Shown here in pieces: positions 2,287 to 33,507 of a stretch of 43,814 bases of DNA. The position numbers and the translations under genes were made by a program. The stretch lies in NCBI GenBank assembly GCA_029219285.1, contig JAQXTC010000048.1, positions 1 through 43,814 of the forward strand, in the 5' to 3' direction. The stretch comes from Clostridiaceae bacterium (GTDB lineage Bacteria > Bacillota > Clostridia > Clostridiales > Clostridiaceae). Every line of letters starts with the position of its first letter. Within the stretch, counting starts at the first letter, position 1. The notes under the pieces are model-generated. The model was not told the DNA's origin. It did not search any database and saw nothing but the letters and a program-made list of their open reading frames with translations.

Positions 2287-3717
2287 ATGAAATTTGTCCT
2301 GTTAGTAATAGTTATTGCATTTATAATAAATATAGTGTTAAGTTTGTCTTTAATATTTATAGAAAGAAAAGATACATCTACAACGTGGGCTTGGCTATTA
2401 ATAATGATAATGCTACCTGGTGGTGGTTTTGCTATATATCTTTTACTAGGTCAAAATCTTAGTAGAGAAAAACTATTTAAAGAGAAGAGAGTTATAGATT
2501 CAGAGAAAAAGAAAGAAATATTGAATAATTATACAAAAAATAATAATAGTCAACATATTAAGAATGAATATTTAGACTTGATGAAAATGAATTTTAATAA
2601 TTGTGATAGTAAATATACAACATCAAATAAAGTAGATATATATTATGATGGGGTGGATAAATTTAATCAATTATTAATTGATTTAGAAAATGCTGAAAAG
2701 TTTATTCATATTCAATATTATATTTTTAAAAGAGATGTAATTGGTAAAAAAATAATAAAAATATTAGAGAAAAAAGCTAGTGAAGGAGTGGAAGTAAGAC
2801 TTTTAGTTGATAGTATGGGTTCATATACTATTACTAAGAGACTTATGAAAAAATTTATTTTAAATGGAGGTAAATTTGAAATATTCTTTCCAGGTATTTT
2901 TCCACATATAAATACTCGAATTAATTATAGAAATCATAGAAAGATAGTAGTTATAGATGGAAAGTATGGTTATGTTGGTGGATTTAATGTGGGAAAAGAA
3001 TACATTAATGAAGATAAAAAAATAGGATATTGGAGAGATACTCATATAAGAATTAGAGGAGAAGCTATTAATGATTTAACTGATAGATTTTTGTTGGATT
3101 GGTGTTATGCATCTGGAGAAGAAATTGATAATTTCTCAAAGTATTATAGCCATGAGAAATTTGATGGGGATATAGGAATGCAAATAGTAACTAGTGGTCC
3201 AGATCATGATGAACAATATATAAAACATGGATACATGAAAATGATAAATAATGCAAAGAATAATATTTATTTAGAAACGCCATATTTTGTTCCCGATGAA
3301 CCAATTCTAGAGGCACTCAAATTAGCTGCATTATCAGGAGTAGATGTTCGAATAGTTATACCAGGAAAACCAGACCATAAATTTATGAAATGGGCAGCAA
3401 GTGCTTATATTGGAGAACTATTAGATTCTGGTGTAAGAGTTTATTGTTATAACAATGGTTTTATACATGCTAAGAATATAGTTATTGATGGTCAAGTATC
3501 TTCCATAGGAACTGCAAATATGGATATTAGAAGTTTTAAGTTAAACTTTGAAGTTAATGCATTTATATTTGATGATAGAATAGCTAAAAATTTGGAAAAA
3601 CAATTTTTTATTGATATAAAGAATTCAAGCCTTATAACAAAGGAAGCACATCATAGTAGGAGTGTCAATCTTAGAATCAAAGAATCTTTAATTAGGTTAA
3701 TTGCTCCAATTCTGTAA
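2287..3717 (+). CDS. cls: Cardiolipin synthase (PLD superfamily)
   Basis: A 476-aa membrane enzyme that condenses two phosphatidylglycerol molecules into cardiolipin and glycerol. Two N-terminal transmembrane segments (about residues 1-21 and 28-50, the second with LPGGGFAIYLLLG) are followed by two phospholipase-D HKD motifs: NHRKIVVIDG with GGFNVG, and FIHAKNIVIDG with GTANMDIRS. Length and layout are those of bacterial Cls. I place the start at the ATG at 2287 because GGAGG (2273-2277) lies nine bases upstream; the in-frame TTG at 2269 would put that site inside the gene. It is transcribed away from the hydrolase from a strong promoter. No terminator is evident after the stop; the aro promoter begins 19 bp later. 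Confidence 0.95.
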   Translation: MKFVLLVIVIAFIINIVLSLSLIFIERKDTSTTWAWLLIMIMLPGGGFAIYLLLGQNLSREKLFKEKRVIDSEKKKEILNNYTKNNNSQHIKNEYLDLMKMNFNNCDSKYTTSNKVDIYYDGVDKFNQLLIDLENAEKFIHIQYYIFKRDVIGKKIIKILEKKASEGVEVRLLVDSMGSYTITKRLMKKFILNGGKFEIFFPGIFPHINTRINYRNHRKIVVIDGKYGYVGGFNVGKEYINEDKKIGYWRDTHIRIRGEAINDLTDRFLLDWCYASGEEIDNFSKYYSHEKFDGDIGMQIVTSGPDHDEQYIKHGYMKMINNAKNNIYLETPYFVPDEPILEALKLAALSGVDVRIVIPGKPDHKFMKWAASAYIGELLDSGVRVYCYNNGFIHAKNIVIDGQVSSIGTANMDIRSFKLNFEVNAFIFDDRIAKNLEKQFFIDIKNSSLITKEAHHSRSVNLRIKESLIRLIAPIL

Positions 3718-3736: not shown

Positions 3737-3764
3737 TTGACAAGATTATACAATTTGGTATAAT
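3737..3764 (+). promoter_or_regulatory. Strong sigma-A promoter of the aromatic operon
   Basis: Perfect -35 TTGACA (3737-3742) and perfect -10 TATAAT (3759-3764) with a 16-bp spacer. Transcription would start near 3771, giving a 5' leader of about 310 nt before the first aro gene at 4079. Confidence 0.8.
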
Positions 3765-3845
3765 TATAAAAAACGACGAAATATTATATTACATTATTAA
3801 AGAAAGTGAAAAATTCTTATCTATGTAATATTTAGGAGGATAAAA

Positions 3846-3974
3846 ATGAAAGGAATTCATAATTTATTAGCAAAATTTAATAGATTTTATTACTTTATAT
3901 TCTGGGGCTTTTACTTTAGCGCTGGCTATTTATTTTGCAATAAAAAAAATAAATCCTTTCTAGTGAGTATATAA
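3846..3974 (+). CDS. Aromatic-rich leader peptide, 42 aa (predicted attenuator)
   Basis: A 42-codon ORF beginning with ATG, five bases after a strong Shine-Dalgarno TAGGAGGA (3833-3840). It has 8 Phe, 4 Tyr and 1 Trp; twelve of the twenty residues 11-30 (codons 3876-3935) are aromatic, including the runs FYYF and FWGFYF. It lies inside the leader transcript of an operon that makes Phe and Tyr and the chorismate used for Trp, 46 bp ahead of a perfect intrinsic terminator. This is the arrangement of classical leader peptides, in which ribosome stalling at scarce aminoacyl-tRNAs prevents termination. The alternative is a small one-helix membrane protein, since the run is hydrophobic. The ORF and its site are seen directly; the attenuator role is inferred. 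Confidence 0.75.
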   Translation: MKGIHNLLAKFNRFYYFIFWGFYFSAGYLFCNKKNKSFLVSI

Positions 3975-4032
3975 TCTTTAAAGATAGCATAAAGTATTTT
4001 ATATTATTTTTGTAATTTTAGAGAACTCATTA
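3961..4032 (+). promoter_or_regulatory. Candidate antiterminator pairing
   Basis: TAGTGAGT at 3961-3968, the last codons of the leader ORF, recurs exactly at 4031-4038 within the terminator loop and 3' arm. The upstream copy can pair over 8 contiguous positions (one G-U) with ACTCATTA at 4025-4032, which occupies most of the terminator 5' arm and its loop. A ribosome at the stop codon 3972-3974 would cover 3961-3968 and free the terminator; one stalled in the aromatic run would leave it exposed. Additional pairing of GAAAGGA (3848-3854) with TCCTTTC (3954-3960) is possible. Confidence 0.6.
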
Positions 4033-4048
4033 GTGAGTTCTCTTTTTT
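4021..4048 (+). terminator. Leader terminator (attenuator) before the aro operon
   Basis: Perfect 9-bp stem GAGAACTCA / TGAGTTCTC with loop TTAG and a run of six T. It is located between the leader ORF and the first aro gene with no other gene in between, so its position only makes sense as a regulated terminator. Confidence 0.88.
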
Positions 4049-4078
4049 AATATATTAAATAAAATTGGGGGCAAAAAT

Positions 4079-5092
4079 ATGATAGTAATTTTAAAACCAG
4101 GAACAGAACAAAAAGAAATAGACACATTAACAAAGGCATTAGAAAATAATGGGGTAGAGGTTAATCCGGTAATAGGAAAAGATCTTATAATACTTGGACT
4201 TGTAGGTGATACAAGTAAATTAGATCCTACTCAAATTGAAGCAAATAGAAATGTAGAAAGAGTTATGCATGTAGTAGAACCTTTTAAGAAAGCAAATAGA
4301 ATGTTTCATCCTGAACCAACAATAATTGATGTAAATGGCAATAAGATTGGTGGAAAGAAATTAACAATGATAGCAGGTCCTTGCTCAGTAGAAACTGCAG
4401 AACAAATTGTTGGAATTGCAGAGGATGTTAAGAATATGGGGGCAAATTTCTTAAGAGGTGGAGCATTTAAACCAAGAACTTCACCATACTCTTTCCAAGG
4501 ATTAAAATATGAAGGACTAGAACTTTTAGAAGAAGCAAAGGAGAAGACAGGTCTTCCTATTGTTACAGAATTAATGTCACCATATGATATTGATACATTT
4601 GTAGAACATGTTGATGTAATACAAGTTGGTGCAAGAAATATGCAAAACTTTGACTTATTAAAAGAGCTTGGTAAAACTAATAAACCAATACTATTAAAAA
4701 GAGGTTTATCTGCAACAATTGAAGAATTATTAATGTCTGCTGAATATATAATGGCTGGAGGAAATGAAAATGTAATTCTTTGTGAAAGAGGTATAAGAAC
4801 ATTTGAAACTTATACAAGAAACACTTTAGATTTAAGTGCAGTACCAGCAATTAAAAAATTAAGTCATTTACCTGTAATAATTGATCCAAGTCACGCTACA
4901 GGAAAGTGGTGGATGGTAGAACCACTAGCAAAAGCCGCAGTAGCTGTTGGAGCAGATGGACTTATAATTGAAGTTCATAATGATCCAGCAAATGCATTAT
5001 GTGATGGTGCACAATCAATTAAACCAAGTAAATATGGTAAACTTATGGAGGAATTAAAAGTAATAGCTAAGGCTGTTGGTAGAGAAATATAA
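4079..5092 (+). CDS. aroF: 3-deoxy-7-phosphoheptulonate (DAHP) synthase, first copy
   Basis: A 337-aa enzyme that condenses phosphoenolpyruvate and erythrose-4-phosphate, the first step of the shikimate pathway. The catalytic barrel shows the GPCSVE metal-ligand motif (Cys102), RGGAFKPRTSPYSFQG, GARNMQNF, KPILLKRG, CERGIRTFETYTRNTLDLSAV and IDPSHATG. These identify the type I-beta (KDO8P-synthase-like) family. Residues 1-75 form the ferredoxin-like regulatory domain that binds Phe or Tyr in the Thermotoga-type enzyme. It is the first gene after the attenuator, with GGGGG (4067-4071) as ribosome binding site. A close paralogue is the eighth gene of the same operon. The aroF name follows family usage; aroG is equally used. 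Confidence 0.95.
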   Translation: MIVILKPGTEQKEIDTLTKALENNGVEVNPVIGKDLIILGLVGDTSKLDPTQIEANRNVERVMHVVEPFKKANRMFHPEPTIIDVNGNKIGGKKLTMIAGPCSVETAEQIVGIAEDVKNMGANFLRGGAFKPRTSPYSFQGLKYEGLELLEEAKEKTGLPIVTELMSPYDIDTFVEHVDVIQVGARNMQNFDLLKELGKTNKPILLKRGLSATIEELLMSAEYIMAGGNENVILCERGIRTFETYTRNTLDLSAVPAIKKLSHLPVIIDPSHATGKWWMVEPLAKAAVAVGADGLIIEVHNDPANALCDGAQSIKPSKYGKLMEELKVIAKAVGREI

Positions 5093-5107
5093 AAAAGGAT
5101 GATTAAT

Positions 5108-6172
5108 ATGGCCAAAAATCTATATGTAGATTTAAAAGAAAATAGTTATAACATAAAAATAGAAAAAGGACTTTTAAATAAAATAGGAAAAGAAATAAAG
5201 TCAATTTATAAAGGTAATAAAATATTTATTATTACAGATGATAATGTAGATGAATTTTACGGTGAAAAAGTCAAGAATTCTTTAGAAGGTGAAGGCTTTA
5301 TAGTAAGAAAACTTGTTATGAAAGCAGGCGAAGAAACTAAGTCTTTTAATAGCCTTCCTAAGATATACAAAGAATTATTAGATTTTAAGCTTACTAGAAA
5401 AGAACTAATCATTACTTTAGGTTGTGGAGTTATAGGTGATTTAGGAGGTTTTGCTGCAGCTTCTTATTTAAGAGGAGTACCATTTATTCAGATACCAACT
5501 TCATTACTAGCACAAGTCGATAGCTCTGTTGGAGGAAAAGTTGCAGTAGATTTACCAGAAGGAAAAAATTTAGTTGGTGCATTTTATCAACCTAAAGCTG
5601 TTTTTATAGATCCAGAAGTACTAAATACATTATCTGAAAAATTCTATAAAGATGGCATGGGAGAAGTAATAAAATATGGATGTATAAAAGATAAAGAGCT
5701 TTTTGATAAACTTGATATGTTAAAATCCAGAGAAGAAGTAATGGATCATATTGAAGAGATTATATATACATGCTGTAATATTAAAAGAATAGTAGTTGAA
5801 AAAGATGAAAAAGATCTTGGAGAAAGAATGCTTTTAAATTTTGGCCATACATTAGGTCATGCTATTGAGAAATATTATAATTTTACTGGCTTTAGCCACG
5901 GGGAAGCTGTTTCTATAGGAATGTATAATATATCATTAATAAGTGAGGCAAAAGGACTAACAAGTAAGGGAACAGCTGATCGAATAAAAGAAATTTTAAT
6001 AAATTATAACCTTCCATATCAAGTAGATATAAATGATAATTCTTCAATTATTGAGACTATATCTTTAGATAAAAAGAACATGGGAAATGTTTTAAAAGTG
6101 ATACTTCTTAATAATATTGGAGAAAGTATGATATATAACACAACACCGGCTTTTTTTAAGGTGGTGGATTAA
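5108..6172 (+). CDS. aroB: 3-dehydroquinate synthase
   Basis: Converts DAHP to 3-dehydroquinate using NAD+ and a divalent metal. Visible family signatures are [26 protein letters not shown], the metal-binding region [21 protein letters not shown] and [11 protein letters not shown], with the full family length of 354 aa. I chose the ATG at 5108: an SD-like AAGGATGAT ends shortly before it, whereas the in-frame ATG at 5099 abuts the GG of that site and has no spacer. The stop overlaps the aroA start by one base (TAATG), so the two genes are probably translationally coupled. Confidence 0.95.
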
Positions 6173-7470
6173 TGGGGAACTTTAAAGTATATCCTAAAAA
6201 ATTAAAAGGTGAGGTTAAAATACCACCTTCAAAGAGTATGGCACATAGAGCATTAATATGTGCCTCTTTAGGAGATGGAATTAGTAGAATAAGTAATATT
6301 AATTTATCTGATGATATTATTGCAACAATAAATGGATTAAGGGCATTAGGTGCTGTTATTACGGAAAAAGAAAACTATGTTGAAGTTAAAGGAATAAATT
6401 CTAATGATTTAGCTAATATGCGAGACTTTGAAAGGGTTATTGATTGCAATGAATCAGGATCAACATTAAGGTTCTTAGTACCAATATCCTTAGTATTTGA
6501 AGGTACTACTAGATTCGTAGGAAGAGGCAATCTTGGAAAAAGACCTTTGAATACCTATTATGATATATTTGATAGTCAAGGAATTGAATATAGTTATAAA
6601 GAAGGAGAACTTGATTTAATAGTAAAAGGAGTACTTAATAATGATGAATTTAGGGTTAAGGGTAACATTAGCTCTCAATTTATAACTGGACTATTATTCT
6701 CACTTCCTATGCTTAATGGTGATTCAAAGATAGTTATAACTACAGAATTAGAATCTAAAGGTTACATTGATTTAACATTATCCATAATGAAAGAATTTGG
6801 AATAGAAATTGAAAATAGAGATTATGAAGAATTTATAATAAAAGGAAAACAAAAGTATAATTCAAAGGATTATAGAGTTGAAGGAGATTACTCTCAAGGT
6901 GCATTTTATCTTTGTGCTGATGCTTTAGGAGCTAATGTAAATGTACTTGATTTAAAGGATGATTCTCTTCAAGGAGATAAAGAAGTAATAGATATATTAT
7001 CAAGGATGGGAGCAAAAATTACTATAGTAAATAACGGATTAAAGCTATCAGCAGATTCTTTAAATTCAACAGTAATTGATGCGTCTATGTGCCCGGATAT
7101 TATACCAGTTTTATCTGTAGTTGCTTCTTTAGCGGAGGGAACCACCAATATAATTAAAGCAGGAAGACTTAGAATTAAGGAATGTGATAGATTACATGCT
7201 ATTGTAAGCGAGCTAAGTAAAATAGGTGCTAATATAGAAGAAAAAGAGGATAGTATAATTATTCATGGCGTTAAGGAATTTAAAGGTGGATGTACTGTAT
7301 GGAGTCATAGAGATCATAGGATGGCAATGAGTCTTGCTATAGCTTCTACAAGATGTATTGAACCTATTATTCTTAAGGATTATGAATGTGTGTCAAAATC
7401 CTATCCAAACTTTTTTATTGATTTTAAAGCTTTAGGAGGAAAAATAATTGAGTGGAGTATGGGGGAATAA
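6172..7470 (+). CDS. aroA: 3-phosphoshikimate 1-carboxyvinyltransferase (EPSP synthase)
   Basis: Transfers the enolpyruvyl group from PEP to shikimate-3-phosphate. Diagnostic stretches are PPSKSMAHRALICASL near the N-terminus, DCNESGSTLRFLVPI, GRGNLGKRPLNTY, ISSQFITGLL, EGDYSQGAFYLCADAL, CPDIIPVLSVVASLAEGTT, RLRIKECDRL and HRDHRMAMSLAIAS. The 432-aa length and two-lobed arrangement are normal. It starts in the TAATG overlap with aroB. Its last 23 bases overlap the start of aroC. It is the step in common to all three aromatic amino acids. Confidence 0.96.
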   Translation: MGNFKVYPKKLKGEVKIPPSKSMAHRALICASLGDGISRISNINLSDDIIATINGLRALGAVITEKENYVEVKGINSNDLANMRDFERVIDCNESGSTLRFLVPISLVFEGTTRFVGRGNLGKRPLNTYYDIFDSQGIEYSYKEGELDLIVKGVLNNDEFRVKGNISSQFITGLLFSLPMLNGDSKIVITTELESKGYIDLTLSIMKEFGIEIENRDYEEFIIKGKQKYNSKDYRVEGDYSQGAFYLCADALGANVNVLDLKDDSLQGDKEVIDILSRMGAKITIVNNGLKLSADSLNSTVIDASMCPDIIPVLSVVASLAEGTTNIIKAGRLRIKECDRLHAIVSELSKIGANIEEKEDSIIIHGVKEFKGGCTVWSHRDHRMAMSLAIASTRCIEPIILKDYECVSKSYPNFFIDFKALGGKIIEWSMGE

Positions 7471-8530
7471 TTTAAAAGTATCAATATTTGGTGAATCGCA
7501 TGGAAATGCTATAGGAATAACAATAGATGGACTTCCAGCAGGAGTTCAAATTGATTTGAATGAAATAGATATAGAGATGAAAAGAAGAGCTCCTGGAAGA
7601 AATAAATTATCTACTGCTAGAAAAGAAAGTGATATTCCGGAAATATTAAGTGGTTTTTTTGAAGGAAAAACAACAGGAACACCTCTTTGTGCAATAATAA
7701 GGAATTCAGATACTCGTTCCAAAGATTATGGAAAACTTAAAGATTTAATGAGACCAGGTCATGCTGATTATACTGGGTTTGTAAAGTATAATGGTTTTAA
7801 TGATTATAGAGGTGGAGGACATTTTTCAGGGAGGATAACAGCTCCATTAGTATTTGCAGGTTCAATTGCAAAGCAAATATTAAGAAAAGAAGGAATAGAA
7901 ATAGGAGCACATATAAAGAGTGTTAAGGGAGTTAAGGATTCTTCATTTAATTATGTAGATATCTCAAAGGAAGAATTGGTAGATTTAAGAAATAAGGAAC
8001 TTCCGATAATAAATGATTCAGTAAAAGAAGAAATGATAAAAACTATATTGAATGCAAGAAAAGTTGGGGATTCTGTAGGCGGAATAATAGAGTGTGCTGC
8101 AATTGGAATTAGTGCAGGATATGGTGATCCATTTTTTGATTCAGTTGAATCAAAGTTATCACATATTTTATTCTCTGTACCAGCAGTAAAAGGTGTTGAA
8201 TTTGGATTAGGATTTGAAATGGCAGAAAAGTATGGCTCGGAGAATAATGACAGTTATTATTATGAAGATGGAAATGTAAAAACTTCAACAAATAATAATG
8301 GAGGAATACTTGGTGGTATAACAAATGGAATGCCAATAGTATTTAAAGTAGTTATAAAACCAACACCATCAATTTCAAAAGAACAGAATACCATTAATAT
8401 AAAGGAAAAGAAAAACGAAACCTTGATTATTGAAGGAAGACATGATCCTTGTATAGTCCAGAGAGCGGTTCCTGTAATTGAAGCAGTTACAGCAATAGCA
8501 TTACTAGATTTAATTAAAGGGAGTAAGTAG
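7448..8530 (+). CDS. aroC: Chorismate synthase (TTG start)
   Basis: Converts EPSP to chorismate with reduced FMN. N-terminal SGVWGNNLKVSIFGESHG, MKRRAPGRNKLSTARKE, RPGHADYTG and RGGGHFSGRITA are chorismate synthase hallmarks, as is RHDPCIVQRAVPVIEAV near the end. The 360-aa length fits. The start is TTG at 7448: AGGAGGA (7434-7440) lies seven bases upstream and the family-conserved Ser-Gly-x-Trp-Gly begins at residue 2. This start lies inside aroA, overlapping it by 23 bp in another frame, so translation is probably coupled to aroA. Confidence 0.95.
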   Translation: MSGVWGNNLKVSIFGESHGNAIGITIDGLPAGVQIDLNEIDIEMKRRAPGRNKLSTARKESDIPEILSGFFEGKTTGTPLCAIIRNSDTRSKDYGKLKDLMRPGHADYTGFVKYNGFNDYRGGGHFSGRITAPLVFAGSIAKQILRKEGIEIGAHIKSVKGVKDSSFNYVDISKEELVDLRNKELPIINDSVKEEMIKTILNARKVGDSVGGIIECAAIGISAGYGDPFFDSVESKLSHILFSVPAVKGVEFGLGFEMAEKYGSENNDSYYYEDGNVKTSTNNNGGILGGITNGMPIVFKVVIKPTPSISKEQNTINIKEKKNETLIIEGRHDPCIVQRAVPVIEAVTAIALLDLIKGSK

Positions 8531-8532
8531 TT

Positions 8533-9669
8533 ATGGAGGAATTAGAAAAGTATAGAACTGAAATAGATGAAATAGATAAGAGTATTGTAGAATTATTTGA
8601 AAAGAGAATGGATGCAGTACTTAATGTTGCAGAATATAAAAAGAAGAACAATATGCAAGTATTCCATAAGAATAGAGAAGATATTGTAATTAATAAAGCT
8701 ATAAATAATCTTAAAAACAAAGATTATTCAAAAGAAGTAGTAGAATTGTTTAATGATTTAATGCAAATAAGTAAAGAATATCAAAGAAGACAAATTAGTA
8801 AAAGTAGAATTGTTAATAATATTGATATAAAAAGAGGGGATATCTTAAAAAATAAGCTTATAGGATTTCCTGGAGTAAAAGGAGCTTTTACTGAAGAGGC
8901 TGCAATTCATTTCTTTGGGCAAGATTCGAATAGAAAAGAGTATAGAGAATTTGAAGATGTATTTAAAGCCTTAGAAAATGGTGAAATATATTATGGAATT
9001 CTGCCTTTAGAGAATTCATCTACAGGTGCAGTATCAATAACTTTTGATCTTTTAAGAAAATATAATTTTTACATTATTGGTGAAGAAGTCTTGAAAATTG
9101 AGGAAAATTTAGTTGGAATAAAGGGTGCTAAATTAAGTGATATAAAAGAAGTTTATTCACATGCTCAAGGAATTTCTCAATGTAGTAGGTTTTTAAAAGA
9201 TTACAGAGATTGGAAATTAATTCCGTATGTTAATACTGCTACTAGCGCAAAACTTGTTAGAGATTTGAATGATAAAAGCAAGGCAGCTATTTCTAGTAGG
9301 AGAGCTGCGGAAATTTATAATCTTGATATTATAAAAAAGGGAATAAATGATGAAAATGAAAATAATACAAGATTTATAATTATTACAAAAGATTTAAAGA
9401 TTACTAATGACTCTGACAAAATAAGTGTTGTATTTTCACTTGAGAATGAGGCTGGTACATTATATAGATTATTAAGTTTTTTTGCTGAGAATAATTTAAA
9501 TATGATTAAGATTGAATCTAGACCAGTTCAAAACACACCATGGAAGTATTTCCTATATGTCGATTTTGAAGGTGATATAGAAAGCGAAGAAGTTCAAAAT
9601 GCATTAAGATTAATTGAAAAAAATTCAGCTTATTATAAGCTTTTAGGTAGTTATAAGAGAAAAATATAG
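8533..9669 (+). CDS. pheA: Bifunctional chorismate mutase / prephenate dehydratase
   Basis: A 378-aa three-domain enzyme that takes chorismate to phenylpyruvate. Residues 1-85 are an AroQ-type chorismate mutase helix bundle (EIDEIDKSIVELFEKRM). Residues about 112-290 are prephenate dehydratase (FPGVKGAFTEEAA, LPLENSSTGAV and the catalytic-site NNTRF). Residues about 298-378 are an ACT domain with the Phe-binding ESRP motif. Feedback inhibition by Phe is therefore expected from the family. It lies two bases after aroC, with GGGAG upstream of the ATG. Its presence makes the operon specific for Phe and Tyr as well as the common pathway. Confidence 0.95.
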   Translation: MEELEKYRTEIDEIDKSIVELFEKRMDAVLNVAEYKKKNNMQVFHKNREDIVINKAINNLKNKDYSKEVVELFNDLMQISKEYQRRQISKSRIVNNIDIKRGDILKNKLIGFPGVKGAFTEEAAIHFFGQDSNRKEYREFEDVFKALENGEIYYGILPLENSSTGAVSITFDLLRKYNFYIIGEEVLKIEENLVGIKGAKLSDIKEVYSHAQGISQCSRFLKDYRDWKLIPYVNTATSAKLVRDLNDKSKAAISSRRAAEIYNLDIIKKGINDENENNTRFIIITKDLKITNDSDKISVVFSLENEAGTLYRLLSFFAENNLNMIKIESRPVQNTPWKYFLYVDFEGDIESEEVQNALRLIEKNSAYYKLLGSYKRKI

Positions 9670-9684
9670 AAGGTTGGGGAGATT

Positions 9685-10494
9685 ATGCATTTTTATGGAT
9701 TAGTAGGAGAAAAGTTATCACATAGTTTATCACCTAAGATTAATACTATGATTTTTAATGCTTTAAATATTGATGCTGGGTATAAGTTATTTGAGATACC
9801 AAAAACTAAAATTAGTGAACTTGGAAGTGCAATGAAGCTATTAGATATAAAAGGTGTTAATGTAACTATTCCTTATAAACAGGAAGTTATGAAACAACTT
9901 GATTTTATAGCAGATGAAGCGAAAAATATTGGAGCAGTAAACACAATATTAAATAAAGATGGAAAGCTTTATGGATACAATACTGATTATTTCGGTTTTA
10001 AGAAAACTCTAGAAATTAATGATATTGAAGTAGAGAATAAAGTAGTTGTTGTTCTAGGTAATGGTGGTGCGGCAAAAGCATTAAACCAAGTATTTATTGA
10101 TATGAAAGCTGCTAATATATATTTGGTTACTAGACATAAAGATAATGCATGCAAACTCAATCCTAAAATAAAACTTATTGATTATAATGAACTAAAAGAA
10201 ATAAGTGGAGATATTTTAGTTAATGCAACACCTGTAGGAATGTATCCTAATGTAGGCATATCTCCTGTTGATGAAGAGGTTATAAATAAATTTAATAGTA
10301 TCATTGATATTGTATATAACCCTAAGATGACTGAATTTTTAAAGATAGGAAAGAAATTAAATAAAAAGATATGCGGTGGTCTTTATATGTTAGTAGGTCA
10401 AGCCATTAAGTCAGAGGAAATATGGCAAAATACTAATATAGACAAGTCTATATTAAATGACATTTATAAAAAAATTGAGAATGAGTTTAAGTAG
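9685..10494 (+). CDS. aroE: Shikimate dehydrogenase
   Basis: A 269-aa NADPH-dependent enzyme reducing 3-dehydroshikimate to shikimate. The substrate domain has KLSHSLSPKINTMIFNAL and NVTIPYKQEVM (catalytic Lys), followed by GAVNTIL. The Rossmann domain has GNGGAAKALNQVF and NATPVGMYPN. It is monofunctional, not fused to dehydroquinase or chorismate mutase. The start follows GGGGA with normal spacing. No aroD or aroQ gene for the preceding step is present in the operon. Confidence 0.95.
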   Translation: MHFYGLVGEKLSHSLSPKINTMIFNALNIDAGYKLFEIPKTKISELGSAMKLLDIKGVNVTIPYKQEVMKQLDFIADEAKNIGAVNTILNKDGKLYGYNTDYFGFKKTLEINDIEVENKVVVVLGNGGAAKALNQVFIDMKAANIYLVTRHKDNACKLNPKIKLIDYNELKEISGDILVNATPVGMYPNVGISPVDEEVINKFNSIIDIVYNPKMTEFLKIGKKLNKKICGGLYMLVGQAIKSEEIWQNTNIDKSILNDIYKKIENEFK

Positions 10495-10508
10495 GGGGCT
10501 AAATTCAA

Positions 10509-11024
10509 ATGGCCAATTTAACAGATAAAATAGTAATGATAGGAATGCCTGGATGTGGTAAAAGCACACTAGGCGAAATATTTGCCAAAGAAATAAACTA
10601 TAATTTTTACGATATGGATAATTATATTGAAAGTATATCACAGGAAACTATTCCACACTTATTTGAAAAAGGTGAAGATTATTTTAGGGAATGGGAAACG
10701 AAAGCATGCAAAGAAATGAGTAAATTAAAAAGATCTGTAATAGCATGTGGTGGTGGAGTAGTTAAGAAAGATATTAACATGGAAATCTTAAAAAAAGAAT
10801 GTTTAATTATTTTTATAGATAGACCTGTTGAAAATATTGTTGAAGATGTTAATGTAAAAACAAGACCCTTATTAAAGGAAGGGGTACATAAAGTATACGA
10901 TTTGTATAATGAGAGGTATAATTTATATATAAAAGCTGCGGACATAAGAATTGAAAACAGAGGAACAATAGATGAAATTATTTTGAAGATAAAATCATCG
11001 GTAAAAGAAAGAATAGTAAAATAA
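10509..11024 (+). CDS. aroK: Shikimate kinase
   Basis: A 171-aa P-loop kinase that phosphorylates shikimate at O3. Walker A is GMPGCGKST (residues 12-20), followed by DMDNYIE (the DxD metal/substrate motif), FEKGEDYFREWE (the FRxxE shikimate-binding motif) and ACGGGVV. The LID region has KTRPLL. Ribosome binding site GGGGG lies about ten bases before the ATG. It sits between aroE and the second DAHP synthase. Confidence 0.94.
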   Translation: MANLTDKIVMIGMPGCGKSTLGEIFAKEINYNFYDMDNYIESISQETIPHLFEKGEDYFREWETKACKEMSKLKRSVIACGGGVVKKDINMEILKKECLIIFIDRPVENIVEDVNVKTRPLLKEGVHKVYDLYNERYNLYIKAADIRIENRGTIDEIILKIKSSVKERIVK

Positions 11025-11056
11025 ATATTTGAAATAGATTTTGGAGGGTGATAGAT

Positions 11057-12070
11057 ATGATTATTATTATGAACCATCAGTGTGGCGATAAACAAATCAA
11101 AAAAATTGTTGATTTTATAGAAAGTAAGGGGCTGCAAACTAATTTATCAAAGGGTGCATTAAATACTATTGTAGGATGCATAGGTGATACATCCGTTTTA
11201 GATCCTGATAAGTTACTAAGAATTGAAGGAGTAGAAAAGGTATTAAAAGTACAAGAACCATTTAAAAAAGCTAACAAGAAGTTCAAAAATGAACCAACTA
11301 TAGTGAATGTAGATGGAGTTAAAGTTGGAGGAACACATCTTGGTATTATGGCAGGTCCATGTTCTGTAGAATCTGAAGAGCAAATTGTTCAAGTAGCTAA
11401 ATCAGTTAAGGCTTCAGGAGCAAACTTTTTAAGAGGAGGAGCATTTAAACCAAGAACTTCACCTTATAGTTTCCAAGGATTAGAACTTGAAGGATTAAAG
11501 TTATTAAAGACAGCTAAGCAAGAAACAGGACTTCCTATTGTAACAGAACTTATGTCTACAGATTATATAGATGAATTTGTTGAAAATGTAGATGTTATTC
11601 AAATAGGTGCAAGAAATATGCAAAACTTTGATTTATTAAAGCAGGTAGGAAAAACAAATAAACCTATACTTTTAAAAAGAGGATTATCTGCCACAATAGA
11701 AGAATGGTTAATGTCAGCTGAATACATAATGGCTGGAGGTAATGAAAATGTTATTCTTTGTGAAAGAGGAATAAGAACATTTGAAACTTATACAAGAAAT
11801 ACTCTTGATTTAAGTGCAGTTCCAGTAATAAAAAGATTATCTCATTTACCAATAATAATAGATCCAAGTCATGCAAGTGGATATTGGTATTTAGTAGAAC
11901 CATTAGCAAAGGCATCAATTATGGCTGGAGCAGATGGACTTATGATAGAAGTACATAATGACCCAGAAAATGCTTTGAGTGATGGTCAACAATCAATTAA
12001 ACCAGAAAACTTTAAGGCATTAATGGATAAAGTAAAAATACTTGCAAAGATGGAAGGTAAAGAGCTATAA
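11057..12070 (+). CDS. DAHP synthase, second copy
   Basis: A second type I-beta DAHP synthase of 337 aa, the same length as the first, with the same catalytic motifs (AGPCSVE, RGGAFKPRTSPYSFQG, GARNMQNF, LLKRG, FETYTRNTLDLSAV, IDPSHASG). The catalytic halves of the two copies are nearly identical, while the first 80 residues (the regulatory domain) and the extreme C-termini have diverged. A likely reading is duplication followed by specialisation to different feedback inhibitors. The ATG at 11057 is preferred over the in-frame GTG at 11048 because GGAGGGTGA (11043-11051) is the ribosome binding site and contains that GTG. Confidence 0.93.
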   Translation: MIIIMNHQCGDKQIKKIVDFIESKGLQTNLSKGALNTIVGCIGDTSVLDPDKLLRIEGVEKVLKVQEPFKKANKKFKNEPTIVNVDGVKVGGTHLGIMAGPCSVESEEQIVQVAKSVKASGANFLRGGAFKPRTSPYSFQGLELEGLKLLKTAKQETGLPIVTELMSTDYIDEFVENVDVIQIGARNMQNFDLLKQVGKTNKPILLKRGLSATIEEWLMSAEYIMAGGNENVILCERGIRTFETYTRNTLDLSAVPVIKRLSHLPIIIDPSHASGYWYLVEPLAKASIMAGADGLMIEVHNDPENALSDGQQSIKPENFKALMDKVKILAKMEGKEL

Positions 12071-12096
12071 AATAGATTTATAAAGAGGGGCAAAAA

Positions 12097-12933
12097 ATGA
12101 AAATAGTAATAGTAGGGCTTGGAGTAATTGGGGGCTCTTATGCAATGGCTTTGAAAAAAGCAGGCTATGAAGATGTATATGGTGTAGATACAAATATGGA
12201 AACTTTAGAAAAGGCTAAAAGAAATGGTCTTATAAAAGAAGGATCTACATCAGGTGAAAATTTTTTTAAAGAGGCCGACTTAACAATCATATCTATTTAT
12301 CCAAAGACTATAGTGGGGTTTATAGAAAAGAATAGAAATAATTTCAAGAAAAATTCAATTATTACTGATGCTACAGGAATAAAGAAAATGGTTGTAGATA
12401 AGATTATTAGCGTCATTCCTGATGATGTAGATTTTATTCCTAGTCATCCTATGGCGGGAAGAGAGAAAAAAGGAATAGATTTTGCAACAGATAAGGTTTT
12501 TCAAGGTGCAAATTTTATTATCACACCTGTTAAAGGAAACAAAGAAAAAAATATTCAATTGTTAGAAGAACTTGTATTGAAAATAGGATTTAAGAGAGTA
12601 AAAAGAATTACTACGGATTTTCATGATGAAATGATAGGATTTACGTCTCAATTACCTCATGCAATGGCTGTGGCATTAATAAATAGTGATGAAGAAGGAA
12701 GAGATACAGGAAGTTTTATTGGTGATAGCTATAGAGATTTAACCCGTATTGCCAATATTAATGAGGAATTATGGAGTGAACTTTTCCTGGGAAATAAAGA
12801 GAATTTGTTGAAATGTATAAGTAATTTTCAAGAGCAATTACAACTTATAAAAGAAGCTGTAGAAAATGATGATAAAAAAGGACTTGAAGAGTATTTTAGA
12901 AAGTCAACTAAAAGAAGAGAGTCTTTAGAATAA
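12097..12933 (+). CDS. tyrA: Prephenate dehydrogenase
   Basis: A 278-aa NAD-dependent enzyme that makes 4-hydroxyphenylpyruvate for tyrosine. It has an N-terminal Rossmann motif VGLGVIGGSYA, the family signature SHPMAGREKKG (catalytic His; Arg where many homologues have Ser) and an all-helical C-terminal dimerisation domain containing QLPHAMAVAL and RDLTRIA. There is no ACT or chorismate mutase extension, unlike longer TyrA proteins. It is the last gene of the operon and ends just before a perfect bidirectional terminator. Confidence 0.94.
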   Translation: MKIVIVGLGVIGGSYAMALKKAGYEDVYGVDTNMETLEKAKRNGLIKEGSTSGENFFKEADLTIISIYPKTIVGFIEKNRNNFKKNSIITDATGIKKMVVDKIISVIPDDVDFIPSHPMAGREKKGIDFATDKVFQGANFIITPVKGNKEKNIQLLEELVLKIGFKRVKRITTDFHDEMIGFTSQLPHAMAVALINSDEEGRDTGSFIGDSYRDLTRIANINEELWSELFLGNKENLLKCISNFQEQLQLIKEAVENDDKKGLEEYFRKSTKRRESLE

Positions 12934-33341: not shown

Positions 33342-33357
33342 AATTAAAGAATTACAT

Positions 33358-33448
33358 AGTTTGCTAGGGGAGCTAAAAAAGGCTGAGAATGAAGATGTAT
33401 CTTCTAAACCCTCTACCTGATGTGGTTAGTACCACCGTAGGGAAGTTT
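33358..33448 (+). promoter_or_regulatory. TPP riboswitch (THI element)
   Basis: All conserved core pieces occur in order: GGGGAGC (33367-33373), GGCTGAGA (33381-33388), a variable hairpin GAAGA/TCTTC, ACCCT (33408-33412), CTACCTGAT, the GTGG/CCAC stem and CGTAGGGAAG (33436-33445). Base pairing AGGG-CCCT and CTAC-GTAG is intact. It senses thiamine pyrophosphate and, with the terminator at 33508, should shut off thiW-thiD when TPP is abundant. Confidence 0.95.
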
Positions 33449-33507
33449 TCGTTTAGTGTAAAGATTTAATTAACAATCTGAAATAAATTTAATTTTTTAT
33501 ATATAAG

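Follow-up and report, generated by a model that had tools for sequence, protein, structure and literature searches.

The window, that is, the whole stretch of 43,814 nucleotides analysed, was found to contain a short leader ORF rich in aromatic codons, which lay between a promoter and an intrinsic terminator and ahead of an operon for aromatic amino acid synthesis. With a probability of roughly 0.9, this leader is a ribosome-mediated transcription attenuator, which would read the charging of tRNA-Phe and tRNA-Tyr (perhaps also of tRNA-Trp) and set the expression of the shikimate–Phe–Tyr operon. The aromatic-codon ORF, a pairing of two RNA segments (2:3) that is an alternative to the terminator, a competing pairing (1:2) in a large part of the family, and hairpin P1 inside the ORF emerged from the comparison of related leaders. 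Leader-peptide attenuation itself is a known kind of regulation. A preliminary description of this DNA had proposed attenuation by ribosome stalling; the comparative support for this proposal was strong, and the antiterminator and anti-antiterminator, which were absent from that description, were added.

The layout of the locus was examined from the sequence. The upstream neighbour was a phospholipase-D-like gene, whose end was placed by eye at 3717. A sigma-70-type promoter (3737..3764, plus strand, as are all features given below) read TTGACA-N16-TATAAT, matched at 12 of 12 positions, and carried a TG before the -10 box (extended -10). The Shine–Dalgarno sequence AGGAGGA (3834..3840) preceded the leader peptide ORF (3846..3974), which has an ATG start and 42 codons and was supported by its translation, MKGIHNLLAKFNRFYYFIFWGFYFSAGYLFCNKKNKSFLVSI, and by conservation. 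Codons 11–30 (3876..3935) comprised 7 Phe, 4 Tyr, and 1 Trp, the aromatic columns being conserved across 127 leaders, and F38, beyond this run, was the 13th aromatic residue of the peptide. The intrinsic terminator (4020..4048) consisted of a perfect stem of 10 pairs (4020-4029/4034-4043) with a loop of 4 and a T run. The promoter, the strong Shine–Dalgarno sequence, and the aromatic counts had been described exactly in the preliminary description, as had the DAHP synthase gene after the terminator; the terminator had been placed at 4021-4048, and its perfect stem and T run stood, but its true start was one base earlier. The aromatic density was 12 in 20 codons, compared with 7 in the next best of the 19 short ORFs of the window with a good Shine–Dalgarno sequence, and no more than 9 occurred in any of 20 first-order Markov copies of the window.

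The operon (4079..12933) was assigned by family search and comprised nine genes in the order DAHP synthase, aroB, aroA, aroC, pheA (chorismate mutase/prephenate dehydratase), aroE, aroK, a second DAHP synthase, and tyrA. The gaps between them were at most 26 bases and some genes overlapped; we infer that the nine genes form one transcript. The first DAHP synthase, which starts at 4079, scored 519.5 bits against NCBIfam NF006421 (cut-off 335) and was closest to the enzymes of named Clostridium species, with 82% to C. chromiireducens.

The distribution of the leader was explored with the single peptide and with a peptide profile built from 25 rows. The single peptide gave matches in 29 of 59 genomes (its own counted), all of one genus. 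The profile matched in 56 of the 68 genomes of the genus (its own counted), in 56 of 391 genomes sampled from the class, representing 31 of 222 genera, and in 66 of 250 genomes from the class of Sporomusa acidovorans, which is Negativicutes in the NCBI taxonomy. The aromatic run, Shine–Dalgarno sequence, promoter, and terminator were kept in relatives, the comparison that the preliminary description had set as a test, while its suggestion of a clostridial peculiarity fell with the Negativicutes matches. The collected set held 127 leaders with distinct ORF DNA and a profile E below 0.01. Genome-wide searches provided 93 of them, from 116 loci after 22 repeats of kept ORFs and one locus without a start codon (L227) were dropped; 31 came from a search next to DAHP synthase genes, for which adjacency to an aro gene holds by construction, and 3 from another search. 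With a first, narrower profile, the DAHP-neighbour search had given 29 of 80 loci below 0.01.

The elements around the ORF were also retained. Among the 123 leaders with enough upstream DNA, promoter-like sites of at least 10 of 12 matches were present in 116 and perfect sites in 72, compared with 17 and 0, respectively, in base-shuffled copies. Start codons were chosen for the best Shine–Dalgarno sequence, and one of at least 4 nt was present in 125 of 127 leaders; a script found a terminator in 118, with at least 8 pairs in 106. An aromatic-pathway gene followed within 1.4 kb in 90 of the 93 distinct leaders from the genome-wide searches, the exceptions being L015, at a contig end, and L214 and L229. 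From Negativicutes, 42 loci were examined (roughly half supplied by the search tool and 20 selected by the authors, with the core placed by a rough text pattern); 40 held a leader with a start codon and 2 lacked one. The genes after the 40 leaders were DAHP synthase (34), aroK (3), aroA (2), and tyrA (1). These neighbours bear on whether the ORF encodes a small secreted or membrane peptide with a role of its own that precedes the operon by chance. The peptide is hydrophobic and has its own promoter and Shine–Dalgarno sequence, as such a peptide would, and yet an aromatic-pathway gene follows in 90 of 93 cases, the RNA pairing persists across C-termini that differ in frame and length, the window peptide had no match in Pfam, and a search of 25 leaders against NCBIfam gave nothing credible. 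This explanation is scarcely credible.

Several loci differed from the common arrangement. In 12 of the 68 genus genomes, the profile search found no leader; no aroB was seen in two of these, and no T-box was found in 15 loci from the leaderless genomes (10 aroB, 5 DAHP). In L233 (genome G012, about 1200-1515), the promoter, an AATGAGT arm, and the terminator were kept before aroB, and the aromatic run and the DAHP synthase gene were absent; by its sequence, this locus is a natural partial deletion with loss of run and enzyme. In L015 (G031), the place of the aro gene downstream of the leader terminator is occupied by a sequence that we take to be group-II-intron-like, and the contig ends shortly beyond it. 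Three genomes (G475, G925, and G935) carried two leaders each on opposite strands (L244, L245, and L273–L276), with DAHP synthase downstream of one and aroK downstream of the other. Three weak matches among 395 genomes in the class of the Erysipelotrichaceae record (L090) were judged spurious: L246 and L248 had neither a Shine–Dalgarno sequence nor an aro gene, and L247 had no start codon.

The composition of the run was evaluated across the 127 leaders. Phe, Tyr, and Trp made up 25%, 18%, and 3% of run codons, whereas in the downstream genes Phe stood at 3.1% and Tyr at 2.3%. Codons of similar base content, namely those for Leu (TTA/TTG), Ile, and Asn, were rare (2.7–3.4% each), and aromatic codons amounted to 46% in frame compared with 17 and 19% in the other two frames. 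Phe and Tyr interchanged at the conserved aromatic columns, one of which held 100 F and 26 Y in 126 rows. The charging of tRNA-Phe and tRNA-Tyr as the signals is thus well supported by the codon comparison, in agreement with the preliminary description for these two amino acids. Its third signal, Trp, is uncertain: the Trp column held W in 89 of 126 rows and otherwise mostly Leu, Gln, or Gly, and W occurred anywhere in 98 of 127 leaders and in all of the 29 leaders L001–L029 of the genus. The residue may have been retained for pairing because its UGG codon sits in hairpin P1.

The balance between the two signals varied among leaders. The leader L208, the only one directly before a prephenate dehydratase gene, had the lowest Tyr share of the set (7F/1Y, rank 1 of 127); the two tyrA leaders ranked 118 and 122, and two symporter leaders ranked 125 and 126. 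The gene downstream of L214 (8Y/1F) and L229 (5Y/1F), two leaders of the class sample, encodes a sodium/solute symporter-like protein; given these Tyr-rich leaders, it may be a tyrosine transporter. A Tyr share that depends on the gene is what codon sensing would predict, although this comparison was made post hoc on five picked leaders and is confounded by lineage. Tyr-rich leaders also stood before DAHP synthase in L183, L189 (9Y/1F), and L211. The near-all-Tyr leaders L189 and L214 and the near-all-Phe leader L208 are also what would be seen if the mechanism were the same and each species sensed Phe only or Tyr only, with the other aromatics as bystanders. This version overlaps the best explanation and is rather unlikely, since F (7) and Y (4) are interleaved in the run of the window and at least two Phe and two Tyr codons were present in 123 of 127 leaders.

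The RNA pairings were then compared with shuffled sequences. Segment 2, the 5' arm of the antiterminator, is CUAGUGAGU (3960..3968) and lies in the last codons of the ORF; it is complementary to segment 3, ACUCAUUAG (4025..4033), which spans the 5' arm and loop of the terminator and shares its first bases with that arm. The duplex of the window was equalled by 4 of 200 dinucleotide shuffles. In the family, the test took the 106 leaders whose terminator had 8 or more pairs; 48 reached at most 10/200 (mean z -1.70), and 58 were above this value, several having their best duplex elsewhere. The pairing was kept by divergent sequences, for example as AAAGCCC:GGGCUUU in L097. In a swap test of three pairs with fixed windows (125, 100, and 102 distinct rows), the native 2:3 and 1:2 partners were each matched by 0 of 2000 permutations, compared with 266 of 2000 for the control pair 1x3; these counts are not probabilities because the leader rows are related. 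In Negativicutes, 2:3 was no better than the control, with 259 versus 172 of 5000 (2:3 n=26), and again no better without repeats, with 178 (n=23) versus 169 of 5000.

Segment 1 is GAAAGGA (3848..3854), which pairs with 3954-3960. In the window this helix had 7 pairs, overlapped 2:3 by only one base, and was not significant (z -0.19, 77 of 200 shuffles); across the family, the pairing was strong. Among the 111 leaders with a locatable segment 2, 65 reached at most 10/200 for 1:2 (mean z -2.21). In L182, up to 20 uninterrupted pairs were present, and the start of the ORF was complementary to segment 2 in many lineages. The later Negativicutes searches repeated the result for 1:2, with 0 of 5000 at n=39 and 0 of 5000 at n=35 after removal of four repeated ORFs.

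The position of segment 2 was constant relative to the core of the peptide. Its motif RRTGRG was present in 90 of 127 leaders at a median of 35 nt (10–90%: 34–37) past the core Gly codon. It began in frame 2 in 54 leaders, in frame 0 in 33, and in frame 1 in 3. The distance from the motif to the end of the ORF ranged from 2 to 69 nt. Because the spacing was fixed and the frame and ORF-end distance were variable, it is the spacing and the RNA that are conserved rather than the end of the peptide.

Hairpin P1 (3902..3925) forms within the ORF by pairing of 3902-3909 with 3918-3925, with one mismatch, and is predicted in the window to be surrounded by an outer helix (3870..3938) of 3870-3876 with 3932-3938 and 3879-3883 with 3926-3930. 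The Cys codon of the window pairs in this outer helix. The fold of the window was reached by 1 of 200 synonymous shuffles, and the core codons beat such shuffles at 10/200 or better in 68 of 127 leaders. In the codon alignment (124 rows), 80.0% of the cells of the P1 arms were paired over 63 distinct arm pairs, compared with at most 78.9% in row shuffles. Outside the FWG type, 81.1% were paired (57 arm pairs), 2000 row shuffles gave at most 80.4%, and slides gave 22–53%. The margin over row shuffles was small because most columns are nearly invariant, and the evidence for P1 pairing is carried by compensatory cases such as L213, L225, and L057.

The conservation of the peptide core could also be read as nascent-peptide arrest. 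TnaC, a peptide of this type, senses Trp; in the same way, the core W-G-F-Y-F-S-A-G-Y would stall the ribosome on free aromatic amino acids and operate the same RNA switch. The core is conserved across Clostridia and Negativicutes, and the non-aromatic S-x-G and Cys are kept. The conserved non-aromatic residues, however, fall mostly in RNA helices, and P1 covaries. Ser was encoded by AGC in 249 of 307 run codons of the 127 leaders, compared with 18% in the downstream genes. Moreover, the N-terminal residues lie in segment 1, the C-terminal RNA motif is read in different frames, and the interchange of F and Y suits codon sensing better than recognition of one chain. Arrest by the nascent chain was set aside because the conserved S-A-G residues of the core are found in pairing RNA, and it is considered improbable. 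Cys was encoded by TGC in 91 of 93 run codons.

Codon sensing would operate as follows. When the aromatic tRNAs are charged, the ribosome would run on and cover segment 2, the terminator would form, and the operon would be off. When they are short, the ribosome would stall in codons 11–30 and leave segment 2 free; the free segment would pair with segment 3, and RNA polymerase would read through. A long segment 1, which is present in many relatives and not clearly in the window, would lock segment 2 of an untranslated leader in the 1:2 helix and lead to termination. P1 probably acts as a pause hairpin and gives the first ribosome time to catch up.

These steps were followed in the window by a ribosome walk model, in which the RNA was free to pair beginning 13 nt downstream of the A-site codon. 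Before the 3' arm of the terminator was made, the antiterminator stood at 0.99 with the A site at codons 2–34 and fell to 0.87 at codon 35, 0.52 at codon 36, and 0 from codon 37. All 12 aromatic codons of the run lie at codons 11–30; therefore, a stall there would leave the antiterminator free, and run-on would cover it. With the terminator complete and at equilibrium, the antiterminator was strongly favoured with the A site at codons 14–15 and 23–33, and the terminator was favoured at codons 4–12, 17–19, and 21 (nearly even at 12 and 19). Since the equilibrium thus lay with the terminator for many positions of a stalled ribosome, regulation would have to depend on kinetics, that is, on the order of folding. 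Without a ribosome, the model was undecided, with 0.43 for the antiterminator and 0.50 for the terminator.

The leader was compared with known attenuators. The trp, pheA, and his leaders of E. coli are textbook examples. The leader family studied here resembles them in its end-product codons in a translated ORF, its mutually exclusive 1:2, 2:3, and 3:4 pairings, and a terminator before the operon. In contrast to them, most leaders of the family carry segments 1 and 2 and P1 within the ORF, segment 2 follows the core by about 35 nt with a reading frame that differs between leaders, the codons are mixed Phe/Tyr(/Trp), the first gene is usually DAHP synthase, and the hosts are Clostridia and Negativicutes. 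The general scheme of leader attenuation is also described in PMC9413887. In Firmicutes, the his leader attenuators are of the classical leader-peptide type (PMC9413887, PMC2965389); according to these accounts, they belong to the same class in a phylum better known for T-boxes, but with histidine codons and his/hisS genes. At the leader of the window, the Rfam family Phe_leader (RF01859) scored 15.2 bits against a cut-off of 55 (E 7.2).

Upstream ORFs at aromatic genes have been mentioned previously. The uORFC-13-1 motif of Acholeplasma aroF has promoter boxes, a ribosome-binding site, U-rich Phe coding, and a terminator; it comprises 24 sequences, from Acholeplasma and environmental samples only, with at least one Phe, and its published account, as far as available, describes no Tyr/Trp run or antiterminator, unlike the leader of the window (Brewer 2021, PMC8632094). 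No family named uORFC-13-1 was among the matches of the Rfam scans of the window and leader, and credible leaders were present in 0 of the 395 genomes in the class of the Erysipelotrichaceae record, a sample that may not include Acholeplasma. A survey of five genomes, one of which was Clostridium novyi, listed two candidate uORFs that contain Phe and Tyr and lie at genes of the shikimate pathway (Stav 2019, PMC6429828, Fig. 6b legend). By this figure legend, they are quite possibly the same kind of element as the leader of the window. In view of these mentions (PMC6429828, PMC8632094), the earlier remark that the element may be undescribed was only partly right; a description of the antiterminator, the 1:2 pairing, the spacing ruler, or the spread was not found in the literature available, which was mainly open access.

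T-box riboswitches also sense tRNA charging and, unlike this leader, have no translated ORF; each binds one uncharged tRNA. No match to the T-box family (RF00230) was found in the window, in which the Rfam scan found only a TPP riboswitch. The TPP riboswitch lies at 33356-33460 (plus strand), with downstream ORFs that we take to be thiW- and thiD-like. The same genome had 22 T-box matches, 19 of them above the cut-off. Four of them were followed by trpS, by tyrS, by a pheS-like frame and then pheT, and by a trpE-like frame that opens about 168 bases downstream of the T-box and runs off the contig; pheS was named by eye, and the other genes (trpS, tyrS, pheT, and trpE) were identified by family search. 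In this genome, the leader thus stands at the common pathway, and T-boxes stand at the Trp branch and at the synthetases named. At two other loci, L073 and L090, the DAHP synthase gene is immediately preceded by a T-box.

A Rfam riboswitch or T-box at the locus was rejected, no family being above its cut-off at the leader. A related explanation is that the RNA responds to an aromatic compound, as a riboswitch of the aptamer type or as a protein-binding attenuator, and that the ORF is incidental. A structured RNA (P1 and the outer helix) does precede the terminator, and RNA-seq in Streptococcus, as far as the report was available, led to proposed aromatic riboswitches at other genes, one copy of which stands before an Enterococcus aro operon (PMC4448216). 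However, the frame, the Shine–Dalgarno sequence, and the aromatic codon class are conserved although the helices constrain them only partly, P1 is small, and no Rfam riboswitch exceeded its cut-off at the leader. Such a riboswitch or protein-binding attenuator is highly improbable.

The synthesis of all aromatic amino acids begins with DAHP synthase. Attenuation by ribosome stalling at this point means that a single ORF could read two or three tRNAs, whereas T-boxes read one at a time. The family is widespread and provides natural variants for testing ribosome position against termination, and the partial loss in L233, with arm and terminator and without run or enzyme, is a natural contrast. 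Aromatic regulation would be predictable by annotators in gut and industrial anaerobes, and the leader is relevant to engineers of aromatic production in Clostridium. Beyond the window, the odds are about even that these leaders form an ancient class of attenuators of Clostridia and Negativicutes, in which the leader ORF is nearly wholly doubly coded, a ruler of about 35 nt positions the ribosome, three tRNAs are integrated, and the codon mix is retuned by gene. If so, Phe and Tyr codons, and Trp codons too in Clostridium, would be interleaved with segment 1, P1, and segment 2, and the mix would favour Phe before pheA and Tyr before tyrA and the putative symporter. The common pathway would then be controlled by three tRNAs at once and its branches by single-tRNA T-boxes.
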